A DNA stretch of 64,000 nt from Herbaspirillum sp. WKF16 (GTDB lineage: Bacteria; Pseudomonadota; Gammaproteobacteria; Burkholderiales; Burkholderiaceae_D). The position numbers were made by a program, and so were the translations under genes. Below the pieces are notes generated by a model, which was not told where the DNA came from, did not search any database, and saw only the letters and a program-made list of their open reading frames with translations. Location: contig NZ_CP118632.1 of NCBI RefSeq assembly GCF_028993615.1, positions 3,162,001-3,226,000 on the forward strand, read 5' to 3'. Below, piece by piece: positions 4,057-23,353 of this stretch. Numbering within the stretch: the first letter of the stretch is position 1; each line of letters opens with the position of its first letter.

Positions 4057-4108
4057 GGATTTTCCCGACGGATGACATCTCAATGGCGAGACTATATCGC
4101 AAAGGCAA

Positions 4109-4157
4109 ATAAATAATTTATCGACATATTGTTTATATTTTCTTTTAGCCGTAATAT
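4109..4157 (+). promoter_or_regulatory. Candidate pxp promoter with regulator palindrome
   Basis: The AT-rich stretch between the divergent MarR-type gene and pxpB contains the palindrome ATAAATAATTTAT (4109-4121). Next to it are a possible -35 TTGTTT (4129-4134) and, 17 bases on, a -10-like TAATAT (4152-4157). MarR proteins usually bind short AT-rich palindromes, so this is a reasonable operator and promoter. Match to consensus is moderate. Confidence 0.4.
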
Positions 4158-4248
4158 CCGAAAAAAAAGCAGGGCATTGCAGAACGCATCTTCGACACTG
4201 TCGGGCGGCTTCGCTGGACAGGGCTCTTCACAACACAGGCGAGACGAC

Positions 4249-5933: not shown

Positions 5934-5942
5934 GGACACGCC

Positions 5943-6683: not shown

Positions 6684-6872
6684 GCGCGGTCGCGCTGTTT
6701 TTGTTGTCCCGTTCGAGCAATCGCAACAGGCAGTTCCCCACCCGTTTTTCGCAGCAACCGCGGTAAAGAGCAGAGCAGTAAAACATCAAGGCAAGTCCCG
6801 GAAGAGGTCGCCGGCAGCGCCATGCGCGCTCGCTTTTCGAAGGTGCAGGTACATGCGCAAGACCGGCCTGGC

Positions 6873-6888
6873 TGGCACGGCCCTTGCA
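6873..6888 (+). promoter_or_regulatory. Sigma-54 promoter (-24/-12) before the DUF969/DUF979 genes
   Basis: TGGCACGGCCCTTGCA matches the sigma-54 consensus TGGCAC-N5-TTGCA completely, with GG (6874-6875) and GC (6886-6887) exactly ten bases apart. Transcription would start near 6899, about 32 bases before the DUF969 start, leaving room for the GGGAG ribosome binding site at 6922. This implies activation by an enhancer-binding protein, perhaps NtrC under nitrogen limitation. No clear NtrC palindrome was recognised upstream. Confidence 0.7.
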
Positions 6889-6930
6889 ATCGCCATCACG
6901 TATTTCGTCATTCAACAATAGGGAGTTTTC

Positions 6931-7659
6931 ATGGAGAGCACGACTCTGCTGCCGCTGATCGGGATACCGATCGTCGTGGCCGGCTTTGCACTACGTTTCA
7001 ATCCGCTGCTGGTGGTCACCGTGGCCGGCCTGTCGACCGGCCTGGCCGTCGGCATGGACTTCGGCACGCTGCTGGAAACCTTCGGCGAGAAGTTCGTCAA
7101 CAGCCGCACGCTGGCGACCTTCCTGCTGATCCTGCCGATCATCGGCCTGCTGGAACACTATGGCCTGAAGGAGCGCGCCCAGGCGTGGATCTCCAGCATC
7201 GCCAGCGCCACCTCGGCGCGCATCCTGATGCTCTACTTCATCGTGCGCGAAGGCACCGCGGCGCTGGGCCTGATCTACCTCGGCGGACAGGCGCAGACCG
7301 TGCGTCCGCTCCTGGCGCCGATGGCGGAAGGCGCCGCCGTCAACATGTACGGCGAAGACCTGCCGCAGCACATCCGCGACAAGATCAAGGCGCACGCCGC
7401 CGCCTGCGACAACATCGCGGTGTTCTTCGGCGAGGACATCTTCATCGCCTTCGGCGCGGTGCTGCTGATGGACGCCTTCCTGAAGGAAAACGGCATCGCC
7501 AACATCGAGCCGCTGCACATCGGCCTGTGGGCGATCCCGACCGCGCTCTCCGCGCTGGTCATCCACATGTTCCGCCTGACCCGACTCGACGCCTCGATCC
7601 GCCGCGACGTCGAAGCCTGGAAAGCCACCCAAACCGATTCCCCGAAGGTGCACGCATGA
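6931..7659 (+). CDS. DUF969 family membrane protein, putative 5-oxoproline transporter subunit
   Basis: A 242-residue membrane protein with about six hydrophobic segments, beginning LLPLIGIPIVVAGFALRFNPLLVVTVAGLSTG and including FLLILPIIGLLEHYGLKERAQ, a region seen in DUF969 proteins. Current automatic annotation calls this family one subunit of a two-component 5-oxoproline transporter; direct biochemical proof is not known to me. Placement straight after pxpBCA supports it. The start has a strong GGGAG site. The stop overlaps the start of the DUF979 partner (ATGA). It has its own sigma-54-type promoter. Confidence 0.85.
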   Translation: MESTTLLPLIGIPIVVAGFALRFNPLLVVTVAGLSTGLAVGMDFGTLLETFGEKFVNSRTLATFLLILPIIGLLEHYGLKERAQAWISSIASATSARILMLYFIVREGTAALGLIYLGGQAQTVRPLLAPMAEGAAVNMYGEDLPQHIRDKIKAHAAACDNIAVFFGEDIFIAFGAVLLMDAFLKENGIANIEPLHIGLWAIPTALSALVIHMFRLTRLDASIRRDVEAWKATQTDSPKVHA

Positions 7660-8642
7660 GCACACTGATCACCATCAACCGCATCTACTACCTGATCGGC
7701 ATCATCGTCATGGTCCTGGTGGCGATGACCCTGCGCGACAAGGGCAATCCGAAACGCCTGACCACCGCGCTGTTCTGGTTCCTGTTCGGCGCCGTGTTCC
7801 TGTTCGGCGACCTGCTGGTGGACAGCCTCGGCAAATCCATGGCCTACCGCGTCATCGGCGCCACCGTGATCATCATCTCGCTGATCGCCGGCACCGGCCT
7901 GCTCTCCATGGGCAGCTACGCCACGTCCTCGCATGAAGAACGCGTGGCCTCCTCCAAGCGGCTGGGCAACTGGCTGTTCTTCCCGGCGGTGCTGATCCCG
8001 GTGGTGACCGTGGCCTGTACCGTGCTGCTCAAGGGCGTCTCGGTGGGCGGCATGTTCCTGCTCGACCAGAAGCAGTTGACCCTGGCGGCGCTGTGCGTGG
8101 CCTGCGTCTGCGCGCTCATCGCCGGCTGGGTGCTGACCCGCGGCTCGCCGCTGCAGGCGGTGCGCCAGTCGCGCCGCCTGGTCGACTCGATCGGCTGGGC
8201 CGCGATCCTGCCGCTGATGCTGGCCATGCTGGGCGGCGTGTTCGTCGCCGCCAAGACCGGCACCTCGGTGCAGCAGGTGGTGAGCCTGTTCGTCAATCCG
8301 GACAACCGCTTCCTGGTGGTGGTGATCTACTGCGTCGGCATGGCGCTGTTCACCATGGTGATGGGCAACGCCTTCGCCGCCTTCCCGGTCATGAGCGCGG
8401 GCATCGCCCTGCCCTTCCTGATCCTGGGCCACCACGCCGACCCGGCGCCGCTGGTGGCCATCGGCATGTATTCCGGCTACTGCGGCACGCTGATGACGCC
8501 GATGGCCGCGAACTACAACATCGTGCCGGCGGCGCTGCTGGAACTGAAGAACAAGTACCAGGTCATCAAGGTGCAGATCCCGACCGCGCTGACGCTGCTG
8601 ACCGTCAACGTGTTCCTGATGTACTTCCTCGCCTTCCGCTGA
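7656..8642 (+). CDS. DUF979 family membrane protein, putative 5-oxoproline transporter subunit
   Basis: A 328-residue protein with roughly nine to ten hydrophobic segments, translationally coupled to the DUF969 gene. Recognisable stretches are NRIYYLIGIIVMV at the N-terminus, a central GMALFTMVMGNAFAAFPVM segment, and GMYSGYCGTLMTPMAANYN near the C-terminus, where polar residues inside a membrane region suggest a substrate path. DUF969 and DUF979 genes are nearly always paired. No ATPase or binding protein is encoded nearby, so transport is likely secondary. The substrate is inferred from the pxp neighbours. Confidence 0.85.
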   Translation: MSTLITINRIYYLIGIIVMVLVAMTLRDKGNPKRLTTALFWFLFGAVFLFGDLLVDSLGKSMAYRVIGATVIIISLIAGTGLLSMGSYATSSHEERVASSKRLGNWLFFPAVLIPVVTVACTVLLKGVSVGGMFLLDQKQLTLAALCVACVCALIAGWVLTRGSPLQAVRQSRRLVDSIGWAAILPLMLAMLGGVFVAAKTGTSVQQVVSLFVNPDNRFLVVVIYCVGMALFTMVMGNAFAAFPVMSAGIALPFLILGHHADPAPLVAIGMYSGYCGTLMTPMAANYNIVPAALLELKNKYQVIKVQIPTALTLLTVNVFLMYFLAFR

Positions 8643-8660
8643 TTCCCGGCCATGCATCAC

Positions 8661-8684
8661 CGCGACCGCCCTTCGGCGGTCGCG
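8661..8684 (+). other. Strong hairpin without U-tract after the DUF979 gene
   Basis: A perfect 10-base stem (CGCGACCGCC / GGCGGTCGCG) with a CTTC loop, 18 bases past the DUF979 stop and 38 bases before the DUF2891 start. Without a T run it is unlikely to terminate fully. It may set mRNA stability or lower expression of the last gene relative to the transporter genes. Confidence 0.5.
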
Positions 8685-8721
8685 CCGTTTCAGACAGTCC
8701 CCATCGCTTCAAGGAGTCCCC

Positions 8722-9726
8722 ATGCAACTGACCATCCAGCAGGCCGAAGCCTTCGCCCGCATGCCCCTCGGCTACCTGCGCCAGGAATATCCCAACCACA
8801 TCATGCACGTGCTCAACAGCGAGCAGGACGTGCTCTCGCCGCGCGCGCTGCACCCGGTGTTCTACGGCTGCTACGACTGGCACTCCGCCGTGCACGGCTT
8901 CTGGCTGCTGCTGCGCTGCGTGCACCTTTACCCCGAGCTGCCGGCCAAGGCCGAGATCGCCGCCATCTTCGATGAGCATTTCACGCCCGAGCTGATGGAG
9001 CGTGAGACCGACTACTTCCGCGCTCCCGGCCGCGCTCCCTTCGAGCGTCCCTACGGCTTCGGCTGGATCCTGGCGCTGGACCAGGAACTGGCGCAATCGG
9101 CCTTGCCGAACGCCGCAGCATGGCGCGCGGCGATGCAGCCGCTGACGACCGAGATCCGCCGCCGCCTGCTGGAGTACCTCGCCAAGCTGAGCTATCCGAT
9201 CCGCGTCGGCACCCACTACAACACGGCGTTCGCGTTGGCGCTGTCGCTGGATTACGCGCGCCACGTCCAGGACGGCGAACTGGAGAGCGTCATCGTCGAG
9301 GCCTCGCGCCGCTACTACGGCAACGACGCCGACTATCCCGCGCACTTTGAACCGGGCGGCGACGAGTACATCTCCGGCGGCCTGACCGAAGCGCTGCTGA
9401 TGACCAAGGCGCTGCCGGACGGCGCCTTCCAGGCCTGGTTCGACAAGTACCTGCCGCGCGTTGCCGAGATCGCGCAGATCATGGAACCAGCCCACGTGTC
9501 GGACCCGACCGATCCCAAGATCGCCCACCTCGACGGCCTGAACCTGTCGCGCGCCTGGTGCATGAAGAACATCCTGCGCCACCTGCACGCCGACCATCCC
9601 GCGCGCGCCGCCATCGGCGCCTCGGTGGAGCGCCACATCCAGGCCTCGATCGGCCAGGTGGTGGGCAGCCACTACAGCGGCGGCCACTGGCTGGCCAGCT
9701 TCGCGCTGCTGGCGCTGGAAGGCTGA
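8722..9726 (+). CDS. DUF2891 family protein
   Basis: A 334-residue soluble protein with no signal peptide. It resembles DUF2891: the N-terminal HPVFYGCYDWHSAVHGFWLLLR, then FERPYGFGWILAL, and later YPAHFEPGGDEYISGGLTEALLM. Conserved His, Trp, Asp and Glu residues and an all-helical look suggest an alpha/alpha-barrel enzyme, but no activity is established that I know of. It follows the DUF969/DUF979 pair on the same strand after a hairpin, and the next element is a terminator, so it is the last gene of the 5-oxoproline module. A role in that pathway is inference. Confidence 0.75.
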   Translation: MQLTIQQAEAFARMPLGYLRQEYPNHIMHVLNSEQDVLSPRALHPVFYGCYDWHSAVHGFWLLLRCVHLYPELPAKAEIAAIFDEHFTPELMERETDYFRAPGRAPFERPYGFGWILALDQELAQSALPNAAAWRAAMQPLTTEIRRRLLEYLAKLSYPIRVGTHYNTAFALALSLDYARHVQDGELESVIVEASRRYYGNDADYPAHFEPGGDEYISGGLTEALLMTKALPDGAFQAWFDKYLPRVAEIAQIMEPAHVSDPTDPKIAHLDGLNLSRAWCMKNILRHLHADHPARAAIGASVERHIQASIGQVVGSHYSGGHWLASFALLALEG

Positions 9727-11132: not shown

Positions 11133-11372
11133 TGCCTTCCTTTCAAAAGTAAATAGTTTTTATGCCTGCGGCAGATGAGGCCGGCCGCGGCGATGTCCCC
11201 TACTCTCTATTCGGATGCGCCTGCATCGCGCGGCCGCGCCTCCCCTGGAATGCGCCGTCGCGAGACAAATTGATCTCTCTCAATGCAGACGGACAGAATC
11301 GCACACTTTTGGTTCGAAAGCACTTGGCCACTTTGCCCCAGCCCATCAGCGCCAGGCGCGCGCGGCCAAGAA
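11133..11372. other. ndh upstream region, no gene seen
   Basis: Together with the terminator that follows, this fills the 317 bases between ndh and pnp. It should hold the ndh promoter. I saw no convincing -35/-10 pair, no coding region with family resemblance and no repeat. Confidence 0.5.
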
Positions 11373-11406
11373 AAATCCCCCGTGACCTTGCGGCCACGGG
11401 GGATTT
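11373..11406 (-). terminator. pnp terminator
   Basis: A 12-base stem (AAATCCCCCGTG / CACGGGGGATTT) that on the minus strand is followed by TTTTTC. It sits 44 bases past the pnp stop. Confidence 0.9.
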
Positions 11407-11449
11407 CTCCGTCAACGGACGTCCGGCCGGGGCCGGACGAGACGCCTGA

Positions 11450-13588
11450 TTACTGCGCGTCCTGGGGCGCCGGGGCACCCGAGGATTCGTCGGCTTGGGC
11501 AGCCTTCATCGACAGCTTCAGGCGGCCGCGGTCATCGGTCTCCAGAACCTTGACGCGCACTTGCTGGCCTTCCGACAGGTAGTCGGCGACCGCGTTGACG
11601 CGCTCGTTGGCGATCTGGCTGATGTGCAGCAGGCCATCCTTGCCCGGCAGGACCTGGACGATGGCGCCGAAGTCCAGCAGCTTCAGGACGGTGCCTTCGT
11701 AGACCTTGCCCACTTCGACCGATGCGGTCAGCTCTTCGATGCGGCGCTTGGCTTCCTGGCCGGCCGACGCATCCACGGAGGCGATGGTAACCACGCCTTC
11801 GTCGCTGATGTCGATCTGGGTGCCGGTTTCTTCGGTCAGCGCGCGGATCACGGCGCCGCCCTTGCCGATCACGTCGCGGATCTTCTCAGGGTTGATCTTG
11901 ATGGTGATCAGGCGCGGCGCGAAGTCGGACAGCTCGGCGCGGCCGGCCGGCACGGCTTCCTGCATCTTGCCCAGGATGTGCTGGCGGGCTTCCTTGGCCT
12001 GCTCCAGCGCCACCTGCATGATTTCCTTGGTGATGCCCTGGATCTTGATGTCCATCTGCAGCGCGGTGACGCCTTCGGCGGTGCCGGCTACCTTGAAGTC
12101 CATGTCGCCCAGGTGATCTTCATCGCCCAGGATGTCGGTCAGGACGGCGAACTTGTTGCCTTCCTTGATCAGGCCCATGGCGATGCCGGCGACGTGCGCC
12201 TTCATCGGCACGCCGGCATCCATCAGGGCCAGGCAGCCGCCGCACACCGAGGCCATCGACGAGGAGCCGTTGGATTCGGTGATTTCGGAGACCAGGCGCA
12301 CCGAGTAGCTGAACTCGTCGGCAGCCGGCAGCGCGGCCAGCAGCGCGCGCTTGGCCAGGCGGCCGTGACCGATTTCGCGGCGCTTCGGGGTGCCGACGCG
12401 ACCGGTTTCGCCGGTGGCGAACGGAGGCATGTTGTAGTGGAGCATGAAGCGGTCGGTGTACTCGCCCAGGATGCTGTCGATCTTCTGCTCGTCGCGCGCG
12501 GTGCCGAGGGTGGCCACGACCAGCGCCTGGGTTTCGCCACGGGTGAACAGGGCCGAGCCGTGGGTACGCGGCAGCACGCCGGTACGGATCGAGATCGGAC
12601 GCACGGTGCGGGTGTCGCGGCCGTCGATGCGCGGTTCGCCTTCCAGGATCTGCGAACGCACGATCTTGGCTTCCAGGTCGAACAGGATCGAACCGACTTC
12701 AGCGGCATCGGCTGCAACGCCGCCGCCGGATGCGGCTTCAGCCACCAGCGTCTCGTTGACTTGCGCCGACACGGCCTTGAGCTTCTCGGTGCGGGCTTGC
12801 TTGTCCTTGGTCTGGTAGGCCTCGCGCAGCGGGCCTTCGGCCAGTTGCGAGACGCGCGCGATCAGCGCCTCGTTCTTGGCCGGCGGCGTCCACTGCACTT
12901 CCGGCTTGCCGCCGTCGCGCACCAGTTCATGGATGGCGTCGATCACGGCCTTCGATTGCTCGTGGCCGAACACGACTGCGCCCAGCATCACTTCTTCGGA
13001 CAGTTGCTCGGCTTCGGATTCGACCATCAGCACGGCCGCTTCGGTACCGGCCACCACCAGGTTCAGCTGCGAGGACTTCAGTTGCGAGACGGTCGGGTTC
13101 AGCACGTACTGGCCGTCGATGTAGCCCACGCGGGCTGCGCCCACCGGGCCGCCAAACGGAATGCCGGCCAGCGACAGCGCAGCCGAGGAGCCGATGATCG
13201 CGGGGATGTCGGGATCGATTTCAGGGTTGACCGACAGCACGTGCACGATCACCTGCACTTCGTTCAGATAGCCTTCCGGGAACAGCGGGCGGATCGGGCG
13301 ATCGATCAGGCGCGACGTCAGGGTTTCCTTTTCGGAGGGCTTGCCTTCGCGCTTGAAGAAGCCGCCGGGGATGCGGCCTGCAGCGTAGGTCTTTTCGATG
13401 TAGTCGACGGTCAGCGGGAAGAAATCCTGGCCGGGCTTGGCATCCTTGCGCGCCACCACGGTTGCCAGGATCACGGTGTCTTCGATCGACACCAGCACGG
13501 CGCCGGACGCCTGGCGGGCGATCTCGCCGGTTTCCAGGGTCACCTGATGCTGGCCGTACTGGAAGGTCTTGCTAACTTTATTGAACAC
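11450..13588 (-). CDS. pnp: Polyribonucleotide nucleotidyltransferase (PNPase)
   Basis: A 712-residue 3'-5' phosphorolytic exoribonuclease of the RNA degradosome. Domains in order: a first RNase PH domain (about 1-210), a helical linker, a catalytic second RNase PH domain (about 310-540, with [17 protein letters not shown]), a KH domain with the GxxG loop IGKGG near 565, and an S1 domain (about 620-690, [28 protein letters not shown]). Start is GTG at 13588 with AAAGGAAATACC before it. It follows rpsO on the same strand, the classical rpsO-pnp arrangement. Confidence 0.98.
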
Positions 13589-13824
13589 GGTATTTCCTTT
13601 CTTTTATGGAGCCGGCCCCGACTGTGTCCGCGGTGCGCGACTTCCTTTTGCCGACAGATTTTCAGGCGCTGTCGTTCACCTCACCACAGCCGCCGGCAGA
13701 ACCGGAGGCTTACGACGAACGCGGCCGGTACTGCGCCACGATGAAACAAAACGATGCAACAAGAACGAATTCAGCCCGCCATGGGCGGCGCCTGCCGATC
13801 AGGTTACGGAATCGTAAAAAACAA
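13589..13824. other. pnp leader region, no gene seen
   Basis: Together with the rpsO terminator and its flank this forms the 308-base gap between rpsO and pnp. In enterobacteria the pnp leader is folded, cut by RNase III and used for autoregulation. A similar role is possible, but I could not make out a long duplex and no ORF here resembles a known protein. Confidence 0.4.
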
Positions 13825-13855
13825 AATGCCCGCGTCAACGAGTGACGCAGGCATT
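13825..13855 (-). terminator. rpsO terminator (likely leaky)
   Basis: Stem AATGCCcGCGTCA / TGACGCaGGCATT with one internal mismatch and a short loop. On the minus strand it is followed by TTGTTTTTTAC. It lies 41 bases past rpsO and 237 bases before pnp; partial read-through would couple the two genes, as in other proteobacteria. Confidence 0.8.
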
Positions 13856-13896
13856 CTGTTCATGACCCGGAAACCGGATGGAGACGCGGAGTCAAA

Positions 13897-14166
13897 TTAC
13901 TTACGCAGACCGAGCTTTTCGATCAGGGCGCGGTAACGGTCGGCGTCCTTGCCCTTCAGGTAGGACAGCAGGCTCTTGCGACGGTTGACCATCTTGATCA
14001 GGCCGCGGCGGGAGTGGTGATCCTTGCTGTGGGCCTTGAAGTGGCCGTTCAGGTCGTTGATGCGCGCGGTCAGCAGTGCGACTTGCACTTCCGGTGAACC
14101 GGTGTCGTTCGTGCCGCGGGCGTTATCGGAGATAATGGCAGCCTTGGCTGCTTTTTCGATGGACAT
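13897..14166 (-). CDS. rpsO: 30S ribosomal protein S15
   Basis: An 89-residue protein of exact family length. S15 binds the central domain of 16S rRNA early in assembly and contacts 23S rRNA in the intersubunit bridge. The hallmarks [43 protein letters not shown] (shown in pieces: GSPEVQ, LTxRI, [11 protein letters not shown]) span residues 19-60 and the C-terminal [10 protein letters not shown] segment is present. It lies upstream of pnp. Confidence 0.99.
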
Positions 14167-14371
14167 GCTATTTACCTTTCACAAGCGGTGTGCGGAGCGT
14201 TCAGACGAGGCCCTGCATACCGTGAACTAAAGAATTGAAATCCGGCCAAAATGGCCAGACGCGGAAGTATATAGCAAAATCCATTTTATTCAAACACTTA
14301 GAGACGGCCGCAGCGGCCCCGGGCCTGCGCGCGGCAATGCCCCCGCGGCAACATTTCCAGGACGACCCTAC

Positions 14372-14896
14372 ATGAATTTCCCCGCCCCTTTGTTCAAACC
14401 CCGCCGCGCGGCGCTGGCCGCGGCCCTGCTGGCGATGTCCCTGCTCTCCGGCTGCGCCGCGCTGCTGCAGCCGCCGGTCGCCCCGGGCGAATCGGAGGAA
14501 CAGGTGCTCACACGGCTGGGCGCGCCGACCAATGTTTATCAGGATGGCAACACGCGCCTGTTCGAATACGGCGCCGGCGCCTTCGGCCAGTACCAGTATA
14601 TGGCGCGCATCGGACCCGACCACCGCCTGATTTCCTACCAGCAAGTCTGGACCCTGGAGAACTTCCGCGCCATCCGCGTCAAGCAGGACACCAAGCAGGA
14701 TGTGCTGGCGCGCGTAGGCCGCCCGACCGAGATCACCCGCTACGCCCGCATCCCCTTCGATGCCTGGAACTACGGCTTCAAGGAAAGCGGCGTATGGAAT
14801 TCGCAGATGACGGTCTACTTCGACGACAACGGCATCGTGCAAAAGGTCGAGAACGGGCCCGACCCGCGCTTCGACGATTCGCGCTTCCCGTTCTGA
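14372..14896 (+). CDS. BamE/SmpA-like outer-membrane lipoprotein
   Basis: A 174-residue predicted lipoprotein. A signal peptide ([19 protein letters not shown]) ends at the lipobox LLSGC, with the acylated cysteine near residue 27. The mature part holds two short similar units (EEQVLTRLGAPTNVYQDGNTRLFEYG and KQDVLARVGRPTEITRYARIPFDAWNYG), the pattern of SmpA/BamE domains in which a helix precedes a beta hairpin. The two-unit form and low overall resemblance mean it is probably not the true BamE subunit. It stands alone between rpsO and a bidirectional terminator. Function unknown. Confidence 0.7.
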   Translation: MNFPAPLFKPRRAALAAALLAMSLLSGCAALLQPPVAPGESEEQVLTRLGAPTNVYQDGNTRLFEYGAGAFGQYQYMARIGPDHRLISYQQVWTLENFRAIRVKQDTKQDVLARVGRPTEITRYARIPFDAWNYGFKESGVWNSQMTVYFDDNGIVQKVENGPDPRFDDSRFPF

Positions 14897-14924
14897 TACG
14901 GGCGCCGGGCGCCAGGATCCAATG

Positions 14925-14962
14925 AAAAATGCCGCCCGGTTTTATCCGGGCGGCATTTTTTT
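14925..14962. terminator. Bidirectional terminator
   Basis: A stem of AAAAATGCCGCCCGG with its complement CCGGGCGGCATTTTT, around a TTTTAT-type loop, with T runs on both strands. It separates the BamE-like gene from the convergent gntP gene. Confidence 0.93.
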
Positions 14963-14979
14963 GTCGCGGGAGACAGCGA

Positions 14980-16332
14980 TCAGACCACGGTCGCCAGGGC
15001 CAGCGTCAACAGCAACGCCACCACGGAGACCAGGGTCTCCATCACGGTCCAGGTCTTGAAGGTCTGCGGCACGGTCATGTTGAAGTATTCCTTCACCAGC
15101 CAGAAGCCGCCGTCGTTGACGTGCGACAGGATCAGCGAGCCGGCGCCGGTGGCCAGCACCATCAGCTCGGGGCGGGTGCCGCCGACCGAGGAGACGATGG
15201 GCGCCACGATGCCGCAGGCGGTGGTCATCGCCACCGTAGCCGAACCGGTCGCCACGCGGATCAGCGCGGCCACGAACCAGCCCAGCAGCAGCGGCGACAG
15301 GTGCGCATCGGTGGCGATGCCGACGATGGCCTTGGATACGCCGCCGTCCATCAGGATGCGGCCGAAGCCGGCGCCGGCTCCCACCACCAGGGTGATGCTG
15401 GCGATCGGCGCCAGGCATTCGTTGGTGAACTTCAGGATCTGGTCGGCGCCGAAGCCGCGCGCTTTGCCGAAGGTCCAGAAGCTGACCAGCGTGGCGATCA
15501 GCAGCGCGATCACGGAGTTGCCGATCAGGCGCAGGAAGTCGTTGGCGAAGCTCTTGGGCGCGAAGAACAGGTCGGCCCAGCTGCCGATCAGCATCAGCGC
15601 CACCGGCAACAGGATGGTGAACAGCGTGATGCCGAAGCCGGGCAGCTGGCGATCCTTCTTGCTGTCGTCGACGAACTGCGAGATCAGCGGATTGTCCGGA
15701 TTGGGGATCACCACCTTGGAGATCAGCTTGCCGAAGATCGGACCGGCGATGATGGCGGTCGGGATACCCACGATCAGCGCATACAGGATGGTGCGGCCGA
15801 TATCCGCGCTATAGGCGGTGACCGCCAGCAGCGCCGCCGGGTGCGGCGGGATCAGGCCGTGCACGACCGACAGGCCGGCCACCATCGGGATGCCCACCAG
15901 CACCATGTTAGTGCCGGTGCGCTTGGCCACGTTGAAGGCGATCGGCACCAGCAGCACGAAACCGACTTCGAAGAACACCGGCAAGCCGACGATGAAGGCC
16001 ACGACCATCATCGCCCAGTGCACGTTCTTCTCGCCGAAGGCCTTGATCATGGTGTTGGCGATGCGCTCGGCGCCGCCCGACTCGGCCATCATCTTGCCCA
16101 GCATCGTGCCCAGGCCCACCACCAGCGCGATGTGCCCCAGCGCGCCGCCCACGCCCGTTTCAAAGGCCTTGACGATATTGCCCATCGGCATGCCGACGGC
16201 CAGGCCCAGCACCAGCGACACCACGATCAGCACGATGAACGGGTTCATCTTGAACTTGGCGATCAGCACGATCAGCGCGATCACCGCCACCAGCGCGTAC
16301 ACCAGCAGCGCGCTTCCCTGTACAGCTTCCAT
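14980..16332 (-). CDS. GntP-family gluconate/sugar-acid:H+ symporter
   Basis: A 450-residue permease with about twelve transmembrane segments. Family marks include FIVLIVVSLVLGLAVGMPMGNIVKAFETGVGGALGHIALVVGLGTMLGKMMAESGGAERIA (in pieces: GxGxLGHIA, GTMLGKMMAESGGAERIA) and ATGSATVAMTTACGIVAP. GntP proteins import gluconate and related acids; the branch also includes D-serine permease DsdX. The gene is the last of an rpiR-deacylase-ridA-gntP operon and has a strong GAGGAG site. A D-configured amino sugar acid or D-amino acid is the likely substrate. Confidence 0.85.
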   Translation of the reverse strand: MEAVQGSALLVYALVAVIALIVLIAKFKMNPFIVLIVVSLVLGLAVGMPMGNIVKAFETGVGGALGHIALVVGLGTMLGKMMAESGGAERIANTMIKAFGEKNVHWAMMVVAFIVGLPVFFEVGFVLLVPIAFNVAKRTGTNMVLVGIPMVAGLSVVHGLIPPHPAALLAVTAYSADIGRTILYALIVGIPTAIIAGPIFGKLISKVVIPNPDNPLISQFVDDSKKDRQLPGFGITLFTILLPVALMLIGSWADLFFAPKSFANDFLRLIGNSVIALLIATLVSFWTFGKARGFGADQILKFTNECLAPIASITLVVGAGAGFGRILMDGGVSKAIVGIATDAHLSPLLLGWFVAALIRVATGSATVAMTTACGIVAPIVSSVGGTRPELMVLATGAGSLILSHVNDGGFWLVKEYFNMTVPQTFKTWTVMETLVSVVALLLTLALATVV

Positions 16333-16450
16333 TTGAATCTCCTCTTAGGAAGTTAAAACACCGGCCGACGACTTGCTTCCCCTGTCGGCATCTTTTCAAA
16401 ACAAAAATGCGCGGAAGGCGCCGCAGCGCCCGCCATCGATACATTGCCGA

Positions 16451-16834
16451 TCAGCGTTTGAACGCCACGCAGTCGACCTCGACCTTGCAATCCACCACCA
16501 TGCTCGACACCACGCAGGCGCGCGCCGGCGGGTTGGCGCCGAAGTATTCCTTGAAGACCTTGTTGAAGGATTGGAAGTCGCGCGCGTCGTCCAGCCAGAC
16601 GCCGCAACGCACCACGTGTTCGGGACCGTAGCCGGCTTCCTTGAGGATCGCCAGCACGTTCTGGATGGCCTGGTGCGACTGGGCGACGATGCCGCCGTCG
16701 ATCACCTCGCCGTTGACCATCGCCACCTGGCCCGACACATACAGCCAGCCGTCGGCCGCTACCGCGCGCGCGAACGGAAGATGCTGGCCGCCGGTGCCGC
16801 TGCCGCCTTCCACACCATATCGTTGAATGCTCAT
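16451..16834 (-). CDS. RidA family enamine/imine deaminase
   Basis: A 127-residue protein starting at ATG 16834 after GGAG. RidA-family trimers hydrolyse reactive enamine/imine intermediates released by PLP-dependent dehydratases. Recognisable parts are LPFARAVAADGWLYVSGQV, the helix QAIQNVLAILKEAGYGPEHVV, and PPARACVV, whose Arg corresponds to the residue that binds the substrate carboxylate. Its place in an operon facing a PLP deaminase gene suggests it clears the intermediate of that enzyme. It is not the housekeeping ridA by context. Confidence 0.88.
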   Translation of the reverse strand: MSIQRYGVEGGSGTGGQHLPFARAVAADGWLYVSGQVAMVNGEVIDGGIVAQSHQAIQNVLAILKEAGYGPEHVVRCGVWLDDARDFQSFNKVFKEYFGANPPARACVVSSMVVDCKVEVDCVAFKR

Positions 16835-16938
16835 TACTGCTCCTTTGCTAAAAAAATGAATGCGCCCGTGAGGGACATTTCGTTTCCGATTGGCTTGATC
16901 TTGTTGCTCTTCGAATTCTCCTGCGCCCTGCCGTCGGC

Positions 16939-18444
16939 TCACGCCTCGGCGAAGGCCTGCTCCGACTCGCGCTCGCGCGCCTGGCGCGCCAGGAAGCGGC
17001 CGGCGCGTTCGCCCGTCGCCTTCTTGTCGCGGCCGTTGTAGGCCAGCTTGCCGTTGACCCACACCAGGTCGATGCCGTGCGCCGGCTGCATCGGGTCGGT
17101 GAAGCTGGCGGCGTCGCGGATGGTGTCGGCGTCGAACAGCACCAGGTCGGCCCAATAGCCTTCGCGCACGAAGCCGCGCTCGTGCAGGCCGAAGCGCAGC
17201 GCCGACAGGCCGGTCATCTTGCGCACCGCGACGGCCAGCGAGAACAGCTTCTGCTCGCGGCTGTAATAGCCCAGCACGCGCGGGAAGGCGCCCCACAGGC
17301 GAGGGTGCGGCAGCGGGTCGTTGGGCAGGCCGTCGGAGCCGACCACGGTGGCCGGGTGCGACAGGATGCGGTTGACGTCGTCGTCCGACATGCAGTGGTA
17401 GACCGCGCCGGCCGGCATCAGGCGCGCGGCGGCGGCGTGCAGGTCGACCTGCCATTCGGCGGCGATCTGCTTCAACATCTTGCCGCCCTGCTCCGGATGC
17501 GGCTCGGACCAGGTGACCTGGATATCGTAGTCGGAGGTGACCTGCTTCAGGTCCAGCGTCGACGAGCTGGCGGTATAGGGATAGCAGTCGCAGCCCACGT
17601 GCTGGTGCTTGCCGGCCGCATCCAGCGCCTGCAGCACCTCGCTGCTGCGTCCCCAGTTCTCGACGCCGGCGCACTTCAGGTGAGAAATCACCACCGGCAC
17701 GCGCGCGTGCTTGCCGATGCGGAAGGCTTCATCCATGGCGTCGAGGATGTCGGCGAACTCGCTGCGCAGGTGGGTCGCGTACATCGCGCCGAACTCGGCC
17801 AGCGGTTCGGCCAGCGACAGCACTTCCGCAGTCGGCGCGTTGATCGCGTTGCCGTAGGCCAGGCCGGTGGACAGGCCCAGCGCCCCATGCTCCAGCGCCT
17901 CGCGCAGCTGCGCGCGCATGGCGGCGATCTCCTCTTCGCTGGCGGCGCGGTCCAGGCGATCCATGTGATTGTTGCGCAGCGCGGTGTGGCCCACCAGCGC
18001 GGCGACGTTGATGGAGGGGCGCGCGGCATTGACGGCGTCGACGTAGCCGGCGAAGGTCGGATAGCTGAAGGCCTCGGACTTGCCCAGCAGGTTCATCGGA
18101 TCCGGCGGATCGCCCTTCAGCGACACCGGCGCGGCGCTGATGCCGCAGTTGCCGACCACCACCGTGGTCACGCCCTGCGAGAGCTTGGGAAACATCTCGG
18201 GGGTGCGGATGACGTTGGTGTCGTCGTGGGTGTGGGCGTCGATGAAGCCGGGCGCGAGCACCCGGCCGGTGGCGTCGATGGTCTCGCCGGCCTGCCAGCC
18301 GGAGAGCTGGCCGATGGCGGCGATGCGGCCGGCGCTTACGGCGACGTCGGCCGGCCGGGGCTCGGCGCCGGAACCGTCGATGATGAGGGCGTTGCGGATC
18401 AGGATGTCGCAGCGTCCGGTGGAGGATGCGGATTGAGTGGTCAT
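16939..18444 (-). CDS. N-acyl-D-amino-acid deacylase (D-aminoacylase)
   Basis: A 501-residue metal-dependent amidohydrolase. The metal site His-x-His is H71/H73 in GFIDAHTHDD, and Cys100 in GNCGIS matches the bridging cysteine typical of D-aminoacylases. SHLKCAGVENWG and MSDDDVNRILSHPATVVGSDGLPND (short pieces SHLKC, VGSDGLP) supply further ligands. The family removes acyl groups from N-acyl-D-amino acids. It starts 1 base after the rpiR stop, indicating a single transcript. In this context N-acetyl-D-glucosaminate, whose C2 has the D (R) configuration, is a candidate substrate. Confidence 0.88.
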   Translation of the reverse strand: MTTQSASSTGRCDILIRNALIIDGSGAEPRPADVAVSAGRIAAIGQLSGWQAGETIDATGRVLAPGFIDAHTHDDTNVIRTPEMFPKLSQGVTTVVVGNCGISAAPVSLKGDPPDPMNLLGKSEAFSYPTFAGYVDAVNAARPSINVAALVGHTALRNNHMDRLDRAASEEEIAAMRAQLREALEHGALGLSTGLAYGNAINAPTAEVLSLAEPLAEFGAMYATHLRSEFADILDAMDEAFRIGKHARVPVVISHLKCAGVENWGRSSEVLQALDAAGKHQHVGCDCYPYTASSSTLDLKQVTSDYDIQVTWSEPHPEQGGKMLKQIAAEWQVDLHAAAARLMPAGAVYHCMSDDDVNRILSHPATVVGSDGLPNDPLPHPRLWGAFPRVLGYYSREQKLFSLAVAVRKMTGLSALRFGLHERGFVREGYWADLVLFDADTIRDAASFTDPMQPAHGIDLVWVNGKLAYNGRDKKATGERAGRFLARQARERESEQAFAEA

Positions 18445-18445
18445 G

Positions 18446-19330
18446 TCAGTCTCCCAGCGGCTGGTGGCGATCGCCGCCGCCGCGATGCGTGTCGAGCACG
18501 TATTTCAGCCGGCGCAGGCGTTCCTGGCTGCTTTCCTTCTGCAGCAAGGCCAGTTCCAGCACCAGCATGTCGAGCGTCACCATCATCGCGTAGCGTGATG
18601 AGGACGGTTTGAAAATCAGGTCGGTCTCCAGCGTCTTGATCGGCAGCAGCACGTCGGCGATTTTCGCCAGGGGCGAACCGAGCGCGGTGATGGCGACGAT
18701 CTTGACGCCGTATTCGTGCGCCACCTCGCAGTTGGCCAGCAGCTCGGGCACGTTGCCGGTGGCGGAGAAGACCAGCAGCACGTCGTTCTTGTCCAGCGTG
18801 GCGGCCACCATCTTTTGCAGGATGGCGTCGTGGTAGGTGGCGATCGGCCGGCCCAGGCGCACCAGGCGGTAGCGTGCCTCGTCCGACATCATGGTCGAGC
18901 CGCCGCCCATGCCGAAGCAGTAGATCATGCGCGCCTCCAGCAGCAGCGCCGCGGCCGCCATCAGCATGTCGGGATTGAGCATGGCGCGGTTGAGCTCCAG
19001 CACCGCGTGGATATCGTTGTAGACCTGGTCGGCCAGTTCCGGCGGCTGCTCGGAGACCACTGCCTTGGCGCCGTCGAAGAAGCGCTGCCCCACCGCCACC
19101 GCCTGCGCCAGCAGGAACTTGAACTCGCGCACGTCGCGGCAGCCCATCGCCTTGGCGAAGCGCGTCACGCTGGCCACCGACACGCCGGCCTTGGCCGCCA
19201 GCTCGCCGATGCTGGCGCTGGCCGCGCTCGATAGATCCCCGAGGATGGCCTCGGCGACCTTCTGTTCGGCCAGGCGCAGCGTGCTGCTGCGTTCTGTGAT
19301 GCGGGAGACGATGTCCAAGGTCTGCGCCAT
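18446..19330 (-). CDS. RpiR-family transcriptional regulator
   Basis: A 294-residue regulator (start ATG 19330, MAQTLDIVSRI; a GTG at 19372 is in frame but less likely). An N-terminal helix-turn-helix domain (about residues 5-80, LAEQKVAEAILGD... SIGELAAKAGVSVASVTRFAKAMGC) is followed by a SIS sugar-isomerase-like domain (about 120-260, IYCFGMGGGSTMMSDEARYRL, LVFSATGNVPELL). RpiR proteins sense phosphorylated sugars. It heads the deacylase operon and is divergent from the deaminase-kinase operon, so it probably controls both; an inverted repeat lies between them. Confidence 0.92.
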   Translation of the reverse strand: MAQTLDIVSRITERSSTLRLAEQKVAEAILGDLSSAASASIGELAAKAGVSVASVTRFAKAMGCRDVREFKFLLAQAVAVGQRFFDGAKAVVSEQPPELADQVYNDIHAVLELNRAMLNPDMLMAAAALLLEARMIYCFGMGGGSTMMSDEARYRLVRLGRPIATYHDAILQKMVAATLDKNDVLLVFSATGNVPELLANCEVAHEYGVKIVAITALGSPLAKIADVLLPIKTLETDLIFKPSSSRYAMMVTLDMLVLELALLQKESSQERLRRLKYVLDTHRGGGDRHQPLGD

Positions 19331-19360
19331 GCGAAAGTGTTTCCCTAAATTATTTATGTT

Positions 19361-19390
19361 ATTTACTAACACAGCGCAAACATAGTAAAT
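19361..19390. promoter_or_regulatory. Inverted repeat, candidate RpiR operator
   Basis: ATTTACTA (19361-19368) and TAGTAAAT (19383-19390) form a perfect 8-base inverted repeat with a 14-base spacer in the 106-base gap between the divergent rpiR-type gene and the deaminase gene. The gap is much richer in A+T than its surroundings. RpiR regulators bind inverted repeats of this kind. Confidence 0.6.
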
Positions 19391-19436
19391 TCATGGGTAT
19401 TATTACGTCAATCCAATTTTTACAGGAATAATTGCG

Positions 19437-20729
19437 ATGAATGATACAAACTACCAAATTGCTTATCAGACCGGCATCATCGACCCTGTAAACAAGGGCC
19501 TGGGACCGTTGCAGCAGCCGCTGGCGCCGCAAGAGGCCGGCTCGGTGCAGTGGAACCTGCTCAACGAAGACATCAGCCTGCCGGCCGCGGTTCTCTACGA
19601 AGAGAAACTGGCGCACAACCTCAAGTGGATGCAGGATTTCGTCGGCCAGTACAAGGTCAAGCTGGCCCCGCACGGCAAGACCACCATGGCGCCCAAGCTG
19701 TTCAAGCGCCAGCTCGACACCGGCGCCTGGGGCATCACCCTGGCTACCGCGCACCAGACCCTGGCCGGCTATCGCCACGGCGTGCGCCGCGTGATCATGG
19801 CCAACCAGCTGGTGGGCAAACGCAACATGGCGATCATCTCGGAGCTGCTGGCCGATCCTTCCTTCGAATTCTTTTGCCTGGTCGACTCGGCCGACCTGGT
19901 GGACCAGCTCGGCAGCTTCTTCGCCGAACGCCATCAAACCCTGAACGTGCTGCTGGAGCTGGGCCCCGCGGGCGGACGCACCGGCGTGCGCGACGACGCG
20001 CAGCAGGCGGCGGTGCTGGAGGCGGTCAAGCGCTGGGACAGCATCGCGCTGGCCGGCGTGGAGGTGTATGAAGGCGTGCTCAAGGAAGAAGCCGACATCC
20101 GCCGCTTCCTGCAGCGCGCAGTGGCCTGCGTCAAGGATCTCGCGCAGCAGGGCCTGCTGGCCAAGCGCGCCGCGCGCGGTCCGGCGGTGCTGACCGGCGC
20201 CGGCTCGGCCTGGTACGACGTGGTGGCCGAAGAGTTTGCCCAGGCCGACATCGGCCAGCCGCTGGACGTGGTGCTGCGCCCGGGCTGTTACCTGACGCAT
20301 GACGTCGGCATCTATCGCGCCGCCCAGGCGCAGATCCAGGTGCGCAACCGGGTGGCGCACAGCATGCGCAGCCAGCTGCAGCCGGCGCTGCAACTGTGGG
20401 CCTATGTGCAATCGATCCCCGAGGCCGACAAGGCCATCATTGCGCTGGGCAAGCGCGACGCCGCCTTCGATGCCGGCCTGCCGCTGCCGGTGTCGCTGTT
20501 CCGCCCGGGCCGCGACAGCCGGCCGCTGGCCACGCCGGCGCACTGGGAAGTGACCGGCATGATGGATCAGCACGCCTACCTGAAGATCGCCGCCGGCGAC
20601 GACATCAAGGTCGGCGACATGATCGCCTTCGACATCTCGCACCCCTGCCTGACCTTCGACAAGTGGCGCCACCTGCCGGTGGTGGATGGCAAGTTCGATG
20701 TGATCGACGTGGTCCAGACCTTCTTCTGA
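19437..20729 (+). CDS. Fold-type III PLP amino acid deaminase/dehydratase (D-serine dehydratase / D-threonine aldolase family)
   Basis: A 430-residue enzyme with an alanine-racemase-like N-terminal barrel and a C-terminal D-serine-dehydratase-like domain. The predicted PLP lysine is Lys81 in APHGKTTMAP, and a His-x-Cys metal pair (His402, Cys404 in SHPC) matches the Zn site of eukaryotic-type D-serine dehydratase. Such enzymes eliminate water or cleave beta-hydroxy D-amino acids, releasing an enamine and then ammonia. A KDG-type kinase gene follows, so D-glucosaminate, which would give 2-keto-3-deoxygluconate, is a strong substrate candidate; D-serine or D-threonine are alternatives. The start is preceded by AGGA. 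Confidence 0.85.
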   Translation: MNDTNYQIAYQTGIIDPVNKGLGPLQQPLAPQEAGSVQWNLLNEDISLPAAVLYEEKLAHNLKWMQDFVGQYKVKLAPHGKTTMAPKLFKRQLDTGAWGITLATAHQTLAGYRHGVRRVIMANQLVGKRNMAIISELLADPSFEFFCLVDSADLVDQLGSFFAERHQTLNVLLELGPAGGRTGVRDDAQQAAVLEAVKRWDSIALAGVEVYEGVLKEEADIRRFLQRAVACVKDLAQQGLLAKRAARGPAVLTGAGSAWYDVVAEEFAQADIGQPLDVVLRPGCYLTHDVGIYRAAQAQIQVRNRVAHSMRSQLQPALQLWAYVQSIPEADKAIIALGKRDAAFDAGLPLPVSLFRPGRDSRPLATPAHWEVTGMMDQHAYLKIAAGDDIKVGDMIAFDISHPCLTFDKWRHLPVVDGKFDVIDVVQTFF

Positions 20730-20817
20730 AAATCCTGTTAGGCTTTCGCGCCATCCGTCGCCTGCGTCAATTGCGCCAGGCGGCGCGGCGCAACTCCCTG
20801 AACGCACAGCAAAGAAC

Positions 20818-21738
20818 ATGAGCAACAAGATCCTCGCCTACGGCGAAGCGATGGTGGAATTCAACCAGAGCATCAAGACGCCGCGCAACTACCTCGAAGG
20901 CTTCGGCGGCGACACCTCCAACTTCGCCATCGCCGCCGCGCGCCAGGGCGCCGACAGCGGCTATATCAGCGCCGTGGGCGACGATCATTTCGGCCGCAGC
21001 CTGCTTGACCTGTGGCAGGCCGAGCGCGTCGACACCGAACATGTCGGCGTGCAGCAAGGCGTCTCCACCGGCATCTACTTCGTCACCCACAACGACGCCG
21101 GCCACCACTTCCATTACCTGCGCGCCGGTTCCGCGGCCAGCCGCTTTGCCCCGCAACAGCTGCCGTTGGCCGCCATCGAGCAAGCCCGCGTGCTGCACCT
21201 GTCGGGCATCAGCCTGGCCATCAGCGAAAGCGCCTGCGACGCCGGCCTGGCGGCGATGGCGCACGCGCGCCGCCACGGCGTGCTGACCTCGCTGGACACC
21301 AACCTGCGGCTGCGCCTGTGGCCGCTGGAACGCGCCCGCGAAAAGATGACCGACGCCTTCAAGCTGTGCGACATCTGCCTGCCGAGCTGGGAGGATGTAT
21401 CGATGCTGACGGGACTGGAAGACCGCGACGCCATCGTCGACCTGCTGCTCTCGTATGGCGTCAAGCTGGTGGCGTTCAAGCTGGGTCGCGAAGGCTGCTA
21501 TGTGGCCACGCCCGATGAGCGCCGCATGGTGGCGCCCTACACGGTCGAGGCGCTGGATGCGACCGGCGCCGGCGACTGCTTCGGCGGCGCTTTCGTGGCC
21601 GAGCTGGTGGCGGGACGCGACCCCTTCGCCGCCGCGCGCTACGCCAATGTGGCGGCGGCGCTCTCGACCACCGGCTATGGCGCGGTCGAACCCATTCCCA
21701 CCCGCCAGAAAGTCGAAGCCGCCCTGAAGGCGGCCTGA
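20818..21738 (+). CDS. PfkB-family sugar kinase, probable 2-keto-3-deoxygluconate kinase
   Basis: A 306-residue ribokinase-type kinase. It has the N-terminal substrate motif GGDTSNFAIAAARQGADSGYISAVGDDHFG, the SLDTNLRLRLWP segment typical of KDG kinases, and the C-terminal anion hole and base in DATGAGDCFGGAF (catalytic Asp near residue 251). KDG kinases make KDPG for the Entner-Doudoroff aldolase. It lies 88 bases after the deaminase gene on the same strand. Without the neighbours, a generic fructokinase-like role could not be excluded. No KDPG aldolase gene is in the window. Confidence 0.85.
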   Translation: MSNKILAYGEAMVEFNQSIKTPRNYLEGFGGDTSNFAIAAARQGADSGYISAVGDDHFGRSLLDLWQAERVDTEHVGVQQGVSTGIYFVTHNDAGHHFHYLRAGSAASRFAPQQLPLAAIEQARVLHLSGISLAISESACDAGLAAMAHARRHGVLTSLDTNLRLRLWPLERAREKMTDAFKLCDICLPSWEDVSMLTGLEDRDAIVDLLLSYGVKLVAFKLGREGCYVATPDERRMVAPYTVEALDATGAGDCFGGAFVAELVAGRDPFAAARYANVAAALSTTGYGAVEPIPTRQKVEAALKAA

Positions 21739-21772: not shown

Positions 21773-23116
21773 CTACGCCTGCTCCGTGCGCCTGGCCACG
21801 AACAGCATGCCCGCCACCGACTGGCGGATCTCCTCGCGCAGGATCTGCTGGCTGTCGTGCACTACTTCCATTCCGCTGTTCTTCAAATGCAGGTGCACAT
21901 AGTCGCGGCTGTGCCGGTAGCGGCCGCTGGCGTGCAGGCAGAAGCCTGAGGGCGCCTGGTCCTGCGGCGTCACCGCCTCCACCGTGAAGATGAAGTAGCC
22001 ATCGCGGCGCAAGGCGCCGGCGACGTCGCGGAACACGCTCCCCAGGTCGCCGAAATAGATCATGGTGTCGGCCGCCGTCACCAGGTCGCAGGACAGCGGA
22101 TTGCGCGCCAGGTAGTCGCCGATCTCGGCTTTTTCCAGCTGCGCATAGTGGCCCGCGGCGGCGGCCTTGGCCAGCATCTTGCCGGCCAGGTCGACGCCGG
22201 TGATGCGGTGCGAGAACGGCGCCATGTAAGGGCCGCACAGGCCGGTGCCGCAGCCGATGTCGAGCGCCTCGAACTGGCGCGCCGGTTGCGCCACCATGCC
22301 CAGGCCCTCGCCGATCAGGCGCGGGCCGCGATAGCCCAGGCTCTCCAGAAGGTTGGCCTCGAAGGTGTCGGCATAGCGGTCGAAGTGGAATTCGATGTAG
22401 CGGTCGGAGGCGCGCTGCGGCACGTCGTCCTGCGAGCAGGCGGCCAGCATGTGGGCCGCGACCGGATTGTCCGGCTCATCGGCCAGCCAGGCGCGGTAGG
22501 CCTCGGCCGCCTCCTGCAGGCGCCCCAGGAAATAGAAGGAAATCCCCAGCATCTCCTTGGACTTGCCCTCCAGCGGCGGCAGCACATAGGCGCGGCATTG
22601 GTAGTGCGACGCCTGCATCTTGTCGCCGGCGGCCTCGAAGATGCCGCCCAGGTGCAAGAGCGCCGGCACGAAGCCGGGATCGATGGCGACGGCGCGCTCG
22701 AACGAGCCGGTGGCCTCGGCGGTCTTCTGCAGCTGCAGCTGGGTGGCGCCCAGGTTGTTCCAGATCGTGTGGTCCTGCGGGGTGATCGCCAGCGCATCGG
22801 CATAGGCCAGTTCGGCCTCCTCCAGGCGGCCCAGCGCGAACAGCACGTTGCCCAGGTCGTTCTGCCAGGAAGCGTCCTCGGACTCCAGCGCGCAGGACAG
22901 CATCAGTTTCTCGACCGCCTCGTCATGCCGCCCTACCTGGTGCAGCCAGATGCCGTAGTAATGCAGCGCGACCGGCTGGATAGGATCATCTTCCAGCACC
23001 GCCTCGTAGATGGCGGCGGCTTCGTCCAGGCGGCCGGCCATGTGGGCGTCGATGCCCTGCTGCAGTTGCGCGAGCGGCGCCGGTTGAAGGTCCGAGGGCG
23101 ATTGTAGCGATTGCAT
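21773..23116 (-). CDS. TPR-repeat protein fused to a SAM-dependent methyltransferase
   Basis: A 447-residue two-part protein. Residues about 20-210 hold tetratricopeptide-like repeats (IYEAVLEDDPIQPVALHYYGIWLHQVGRHDEA, NDLGNVLFALGRLEEAELAYADAL; short pieces). Residues about 270-400 form a class I methyltransferase with motif I ALDIGCGTGLCGPY and the acidic VDLAGKML. Start set at ATG 23116; the reading frame stays open to a TTG at 23260, but repeats begin just after 23116. The TPR part probably docks a protein or polysaccharide substrate. Methylation target unknown. It is a single gene, convergent with the kinase gene. Confidence 0.82.
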   Translation of the reverse strand: MQSLQSPSDLQPAPLAQLQQGIDAHMAGRLDEAAAIYEAVLEDDPIQPVALHYYGIWLHQVGRHDEAVEKLMLSCALESEDASWQNDLGNVLFALGRLEEAELAYADALAITPQDHTIWNNLGATQLQLQKTAEATGSFERAVAIDPGFVPALLHLGGIFEAAGDKMQASHYQCRAYVLPPLEGKSKEMLGISFYFLGRLQEAAEAYRAWLADEPDNPVAAHMLAACSQDDVPQRASDRYIEFHFDRYADTFEANLLESLGYRGPRLIGEGLGMVAQPARQFEALDIGCGTGLCGPYMAPFSHRITGVDLAGKMLAKAAAAGHYAQLEKAEIGDYLARNPLSCDLVTAADTMIYFGDLGSVFRDVAGALRRDGYFIFTVEAVTPQDQAPSGFCLHASGRYRHSRDYVHLHLKNSGMEVVHDSQQILREEIRQSVAGMLFVARRTEQA

Positions 23117-23353
23117 AGCGTAATCCCGATCCAGAGCATCCAAGAAAAACAGTCCAAGACCCCAAGCTGGCGCAGCCGCGCAGGCCTGCCGCAGGCGCAG
23201 CCAGTGTACAGCGTCTTTACATTTCTTTGCGATTGTTGGCGAGAATTGGTGCGTTGGCAATGCCTAATCCTTCGGCTTTGCAGCCCAAAGATGCGCCTGG
23301 CGCCCCCAATGACCGGGGCGGCCAGTCCGCCCGCGTCGGCGGCAGGCAAGAAA

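Follow-up and report, generated by a model that had tools for sequence, protein, structure and literature searches.

A GntP-associated gene module of Herbaspirillum resembling the catabolic core of the oxidative chitin utilization (ong) pathway

An oxidative mode of chitin utilization was described in 2022 for Pseudoalteromonas prydzensis ACAM 620, with genetic and biochemical proof that its ong gene cluster takes N-acetyl-D-glucosaminate (GlcNAc1A) through D-glucosaminate (GlcN1A) and 2-keto-3-deoxygluconate (KDG) to 2-keto-3-deoxy-6-phosphogluconate (KDPG) (PMC9537276). As reported there, OngB deacetylates GlcNAc1A, OngC deaminates GlcN1A to KDG, and KdgK makes KDPG; OngR is an RpiR protein that acts as a repressor, and OngD is a RidA protein of 127 amino acids that is required for growth and the role of which that source does not establish. 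The same source names ong-bearing strains of Vibrio, Klebsiella, Pseudomonas and Cellvibrio, together with Achromobacter piechaudii, which it gives as the sole exception among otherwise gammaproteobacterial complete-pathway strains; ongOT-1 is described as the single cluster gene that is not highly conserved. In a study of Aeromonas, OngB and OngC are reported to have just distant or no significant matches there (PMC11653859). The structure of PpOngB (PDB: 9kb1) was reported in 2025, along with the residues that separate OngB from D-aminoacylases: Ser292, Glu226 and Gln298 are given as contacting the C3, C4 and C5 hydroxyls, and Ser292 and Gln298 as discriminating GlcNAc1A specificity (PMC12017989). 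Here we compare these systems with a six-gene locus at 14980-21738 of the window, by which we mean the whole stretch of 64,000 nucleotides that was analyzed (positions 3162001-3226000 of the single contig, 4,986,464 bases long, that constitutes the genome of Herbaspirillum sp. WKF16).

The locus consists of six intact open reading frames (ORFs) in two divergent units: gntP-ridA-deacylase-rpiR on the minus strand and deaminase-kinase on the plus strand (Table 1; the start of ridA was assigned manually). The original prediction for this DNA had described that arrangement, and ORF inspection confirmed its order and strands, with all six proteins exceeding their Pfam cut-offs; it had also proposed a route from import through deacetylation and dehydrative deamination to KDG, and on to KDPG, under RpiR control, which is supported by its match to the published ong pathway (PMC9537276) and by the specificity residues of the deacylase. 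We consider it very probable that the six genes form a regulated module for the uptake and breakdown of GlcNAc1A and GlcN1A. Judged by homology, the window's enzymes appear to be essentially the catabolic core of the published ong cluster, that is, OngB, OngC, OngD (RidA), KdgK and OngR (RpiR), where RidA and RpiR are likened to OngD and OngR at the level of protein family and not against the OngD and OngR sequences themselves. The comparison draws on direct observations made here, namely the genes present, the residues linked to specificity, the synteny kept in relatives, an operator-like site with a single copy in the genome and the lack of upstream genes, and, by analogy, on the activities of OngB, OngC and KdgK, the requirement for OngD and the repression by OngR that others established in Pseudoalteromonas.

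Both loci have homologues of OngB, OngC, OngD and OngR, a kinase that in the window is KdgK-like, a route to KDPG that for the window is a proposed one, and regulation of the RpiR type. They differ in several respects. The window has a GntP permease where P. prydzensis has OngIT, an SSS sodium symporter; the regulator gene is divergent from ongC, whereas P. prydzensis has an ongCRBD operon; and the kinase is paired with the deaminase, not with ongIT and ongA. Furthermore, neither a TonB-dependent receptor nor the GH20 protein OngA is among the window's six genes, and its genome is without GH20 or an AA10 lytic polysaccharide monooxygenase (LPMO). A counterpart of the receptor OngOT was likewise not found in a scan that covered the six genes and the gene on either side of them.

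In a search of PDB chains the deacylase scored 684 bits to 9g5m, 561 to PpOngB (9kb1), 463 to AfDam (1m7j) and 408 to BbDam (3gip), the last being compared by score only. The window protein shares with PpOngB the metal ligands, the catalytic Asp, the carboxylate-binding residues, and Ser292 and Gln298; in PpOngB numbering its pocket reads Ala193, Glu226, Ala256, Ser290-292 and Gln298. With AfDam and BbDam it has the fold family and metal site in common, and it departs from AfDam, in a sequence alignment, at three positions where the latter has Phe193, Met256 and Thr292. The window protein does not have the D-aminoacylase signature of Thr292 combined with a non-Gln residue at 298. When the window was aligned with 83 relatives that have an OngB ORF, Gln298 was present in 84/84 and Ser292 in 80/84 (three Thr, one gap). 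Mixed signatures also occur: deacylases of Burkholderia, Paraburkholderia and Trinickia (L046, L060 and L081) combine Thr292 with Gln298. As for the chain that outscores PpOngB, PDB entries 9g5m and 9gv8 are titled only as an amidohydrolase family protein, and the literature search found no paper on them; the OngB residues are present, and this protein is probably a GlcNAc1A deacetylase.

The deaminase scored 596 bits to 3gwq, a chain deposited as D-serine deaminase. Its P-H-G-K-T and H-P-C motifs are invariant in a 12-row alignment (A1); we take the former to hold the lysine that binds pyridoxal 5′-phosphate (PLP) and the latter to be a zinc site of the dehydratase type. The closest relatives that carry an organism name are Herbaspirillum proteins, at up to 89% identity, and one further protein reaches 92%; at an E value of 1e-60 or better, 5 of 369 class-level genomes have a match, the window's own included. 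If our reading is true, the names D-serine deaminase or dehydratase given to these relatives would be corrected. For the kinase, several of the top-scoring PDB chains bear the name KDG kinase. Its motifs YLRAGSA and DTNLRLRLW are both lacking from four other PfkB proteins of the genome (L004-L007), two more (L001, L008) giving no reading. The KDPG-aldolase family has three matches elsewhere in the genome, the best at 233 bits.

We propose that these components would act as follows. GntP would import GlcNAc1A and GlcN1A, replacing OngIT; the OngB-like enzyme would strip acetate from GlcNAc1A; the OngC-like PLP enzyme would dehydrate and deaminate GlcN1A to KDG, with RidA probably hydrolyzing the enamine or imine released during deamination; the kinase would phosphorylate KDG; and a KDPG aldolase, whose gene lies outside the locus, would split KDPG into pyruvate and glyceraldehyde-3-phosphate. 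Bound at 19357-19371, RpiR would keep both divergent units repressed, and binding of an intermediate of the pathway to its SIS domain would lift the repression; the GlcNAc1A itself is most likely scavenged, in free form, from other chitin oxidizers.

The original prediction had called for a search for this neighborhood in other genomes, and all six genes are indeed found in 12 of 80 relatives' loci. These named loci, retrieved with a deaminase profile, are the 80 best among at least 595; a neighbor was counted as present if a match at ≥40% identity lay within a flank of up to 10 kb. OngB accompanies the deaminase in 79/80, RidA in 72/80, RpiR in 69/80, GntP in 23/80 and KdgK in 12/80. Because deacylase, RidA and RpiR recur near the deaminase at such frequencies, the arrangement exceeds chance. 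The core is also, by homology, more widespread than the complete oxidative chitin pathway, since it occurs in betaproteobacterial and acidobacterial loci, whereas the complete-pathway strains given by PMC9537276 are gammaproteobacterial apart from the exception named above.

The importer changes from locus to locus. The window's GntP passes the TIGR00791 subfamily cut-off of NCBIfam, and it is one of three GntP genes in the genome. GntP accompanies the core in loci of Herbaspirillum, Glaciimonas, Collimonas, Cupriavidus, Silvimonas, Amantichitinum and Andreprevotia, as well as in a Cellvibrio metagenome-assembled genome (MAG), other MAGs and six acidobacterial loci. The latter (L034, L035, L062, L082, L086, L092) show the deacylase-deaminase pair and GntP with no match to the window's RpiR. 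In Silvimonas terrae (L021), a GH20 beta-hexosaminidase at 4102-6516 lies near a GntP-type cluster, a link to chitin of the kind made by OngA. Among four class-level loci, two have GntP (L014, L015) and two an SSS symporter, as in the published cluster (L016, L017). The Bordetella and Achromobacter core (L089, L061) shares OngC, RpiR, OngB and RidA with the window and differs in having its genes on one strand; in the Bordetella petrii locus, L089, the ongC-rpiR gap (11302-16695) encodes an SBP_bac_5 binding protein (Pfam) and ORFs that, on visual inspection, look like the two permeases and the two ATPases of an ATP-binding cassette (ABC) importer of the dipeptide type, which is probably a third solution to import. 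L061 has a gap that corresponds to the one in L089. Taken at the level of homology, the same set of core enzymes is accompanied by importers of several types (SSS, GntP and probably ABC), and the importer is exchangeable.

The locus also contains a candidate operator. The 106-base gap between rpiR (from its ATG) and ongC holds TGTTATTTACTAACA at 19357-19371, and the pattern TGTTA-N5-TAACA has no other exact copy in the genome, the reversed-pattern control giving 0. We surveyed the window and 84 loci over 250 bases upstream of ongC (107 in the window): 27/85 have an exact copy, 29/85 a copy with one mismatch and 29/85 none, as compared with 0 exact and 0.3% one-mismatch copies in first-order resampled regions, a comparison that overstates independence in that the motif was derived from the same related loci. 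Neither the Achromobacter and Bordetella loci nor the acidobacterial ones have the motif, and most gammaproteobacterial loci are without it too. We conclude that TGTTA-N5-TAACA at 19357-19371 is likely to be the RpiR operator. A weak promoter on the rpiR side sits just upstream of it, and if the prediction is true the site could serve as a GlcNAc1A sensor. The RpiR regulator lies below every NCBIfam cut-off listed; a search of the main text of PMC9537276 for the terms operator and binding site returned 0 for both. Upstream of ongC, 8/8 host-genus fragments (the window and seven others, L101-L108) contain a perfect inverted repeat, TTTACTA-N14-TAGTAAA, which overlaps the operator region. We tried the 30-base palindrome around this repeat as a general operator and rejected it: it occurs, with at most one mismatch, in 0/80 loci, two of Herbaspirillum included, for which reason the shorter motif is preferred. 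The repeat perhaps represents overlapping divergent promoters.

Several observations pull against the assignments made so far. The GntP family includes D-serine (DsdX) and gluconate permeases, and the window's GntP falls below every cut-off listed for the gluconate-transporter, GntP and DsdX equivalogs, the best being 423 of 744 bits. Furthermore, in 52/80 loci neither GntP nor SSS is matched in the flank of the four-gene core, some flanks being cut short by contig ends; GntP is therefore not obligatory. The best NCBIfam model for the kinase, KDG_KDGal_kin, gives 205 bits, under its cut-off of 400, and motifs like those of the kinase recur in one other PfkB protein of the genome (L003). In the operator region, the motif's absences and its derivation from the surveyed loci must be set beside the result of a sigma-70-like consensus scan, which lists no plus-strand promoter in the gap. 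Within the deacylase pocket, position 348 is Cys in the window and Gly in PpOngB, and Glu226, being common to the window and AfDam, does not discriminate; column 298 is partly alignment-dependent, in that AfDam has Arg opposite Gln298 in our sequence alignment and Leu298 as the structural counterpart given in PMC12017989. Finally, D-serine and D-threonine are further substrates of the published OngC (PMC9537276), so OngC alone leaves the substrate unfixed.

Where would the substrate come from? No AA10, GH18 or GH20 match was found in the genome (AA10 being the only LPMO family searched), and we reject the host as a chitin degrader on that basis, for its own genome. In the host genus, with which we infer the surveyed genus to be identical, an OngB homologue is present in 26/27 genomes, AA10 in 0/27 and GH20 in 0/34. 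Because AA10, GH18 and GH20 were not seen in its genome, the host most likely scavenges GlcNAc1A. The wider family survey covered 294 genomes, with OngB counted at ≥76% identity: 45 have OngB (three of them with one stop within the matched frame) and 26 have AA10 (a few as weak or partial matches), 13 having both, 32 OngB only, 13 AA10 only and 236 neither. Seven of 52 OngB matches (51-52% identity) had been left out as D-aminoacylase-like; six of the seven were fetched, and their different residues were confirmed. AA10 and OngB are associated in this sample (Fisher p 1e-5, uncorrected for relatedness), and two other genera have AA10 in 9/14 and 4/5 of their OngB-bearing genomes. Across the family as a whole this association speaks for a chitin origin, not for scavenging. 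Together, the survey and the gene content fit a substrate that is chitin-derived in general, with the host genus scavenging the free monomer.

A variant that overlaps with this reading keeps the same enzymes and changes the source: D-glucosaminate or N-acetylglucosaminate would come from glucosamine or GlcNAc oxidized by an enzyme of the glucose dehydrogenase type, not by an LPMO. We regard this as possible, though on balance unlikely. A free aldonic acid would suit GntP, and the lack of AA10 (0/27) and GH20 (0/34) in the sampled genus is what such a source would predict; set against it are the association of AA10 with OngB across the family sample and the presence of the same GntP version in loci of Silvimonas, Amantichitinum, Collimonas and Andreprevotia, which are genera of chitin degraders. 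Moreover, TIGR03074, the membrane PQQ (pyrroloquinoline quinone)-glucose dehydrogenase, has no match in the host's own genome, so that we reject periplasmic oxidation by that enzyme; other dehydrogenases, including soluble ones and those of neighbors, were not searched.

A different class of substrate is the premise of a second alternative, N-acyl-D-amino acid (D-serine/D-threonine) catabolism, with a DsdX-like GntP importer, a D-aminoacylase, a D-serine deaminase, and RidA acting on aminoacrylate. The family names of all three enzymes agree with it, DsdX is a GntP protein, and the breadth of published OngC (PMC9537276) would accommodate it. The informative comparison is with six of the seven weaker OngB-like matches from the family survey, which lie in other genera (L110-L115, about 13.5 kb fetched for each). 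All six have Phe193, Thr292 and Tyr298, and they fall into one group with AfDam (support 0.989), from which PpOngB and the window protein are separate. Each adjoins an OngC-like gene of 40-43% identity, and a RidA match lies near one end in 5/6; such a paralogous pair with RidA is in itself a point in favor of D-amino acid catabolism. Yet these loci have no match to GntP, RpiR, KdgK or SSS, and the window has Ser292, Gln298 and Ala193, the OngB type, in place of the paralogues' residues. No activity of PpOngB on N-acetyl-D-amino acids was detectable (PMC12017989), and a KDG-type kinase would have no evident role in D-serine catabolism. We reject this alternative, which we consider very improbable, on the pocket residues and the six controls. 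Because the controls split in this way from the window and PpOngB, we conclude that the deacylase-deaminase pair exists in two versions, of which the window, by its residues, has the one suited to sugar acids. The paralogous pairs (about 4600-9100 in each locus) have Phe193, Thr292, Tyr298 and Gln348. At position 298, PMC12017989 gives Leu for AfDam and Arg for BbDam, and the Tyr of these proteins differs from both; a further N-acyl-D-amino acid specificity is possible for these deacylases.

Least probable of all, if only slightly more so than the last, is a different 2-amino-2-deoxy aldonic acid such as galactosaminate as the main substrate: the closest kinase model is that of a bifunctional KDG/2-keto-3-deoxygalactonate (KDGal) kinase and position 348 varies, as do 290 and 292 in some relatives, whereas the residues that contact the C3, C4 and C5 hydroxyls in PpOngB (PMC12017989) are kept.

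Returning to GlcNAc1A and GlcN1A as the substrates, we tentatively advance a broader hypothesis, the odds of which we put at slightly below even: the plant- and soil-associated genus Herbaspirillum retains an OngB-type module in almost every genome, supplied in the window by GntP and repressed locally, while apparently being unable to cut chitin oxidatively, such that free GlcNAc1A from the LPMOs of others would serve as a constant public good and as a new substrate class for GntP. If so, the oxidative catabolism of chitin would extend beyond the organisms that degrade it; a genus in which neither AA10 nor GH20 was detected would consume the oxidized end-product that the LPMOs of other organisms release; GntP permeases would gain 2-acetamido-2-deoxy-aldonic acids as substrates; and the module would allow a direct test of whether GlcNAc1A is cross-fed in soils and near roots. 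What is new here is the combination of the GntP importer, a host genus in which AA10 and GH20 were not detected, the spread of the core through beta- and acidobacterial loci with swapped importers, and the candidate operator. The original prediction had placed the novelty in a soil or plant version with RidA and GntP. Only the last of these stands, as the literature search found no GntP importer in this role among the matches listed; RidA is already represented by OngD, and terrestrial occurrence by strains that PMC9537276 names. That search, with most subscription papers outside its reach, turned up, among the matches listed, neither a GntP-type GlcNAc1A module nor an ong core in Herbaspirillum, and nothing listed from the glucosaminate-lyase literature was closer than an enzyme that acts on glucosaminate-6-phosphate.

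Table 1. Features of the proposed GlcNAc1A/GlcN1A module, in window coordinates
Feature	Position	Strand	Basis
GntP-family permease, proposed importer	14980-16332	-	PF02447, 545 bits
RidA-family protein, 127 aa, OngD-like	16451-16834	-	PF01042; ATG at 16834
OngB-like GlcNAc1A deacetylase (putative), D-aminoacylase-like amidohydrolase, subtype V	16939-18444	-	PDB scores and pocket residues
RpiR/MurR-family regulator (RpiR/SIS), OngR-like	18446-19330 (ATG) or to 19372 (possible longer GTG start)	-	PF01418, PF01380
Predicted RpiR operator, TGTTA-N5-TAACA	19357-19371	.	Sole exact genomic copy; recurrence upstream of ongC in relatives
Weak sigma-70-like promoter, rpiR side, TTGACG-18-TACTAT	19382-19411	-	Consensus match only
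OngC-like fold-III PLP deaminase (putative D-glucosaminate dehydratase; D-serine-dehydratase-like)	19437-20729	+	PF14031, PF01168
PfkB-family kinase, KdgK-like (putative 2-keto-3-deoxygluconate kinase)	20818-21738	+	KDG-kinase PDB relatives

With no evident tie to the module, a TPR-methyltransferase protein (21773-23260) and a BamE-domain protein (14372-14896) flank it on either side.

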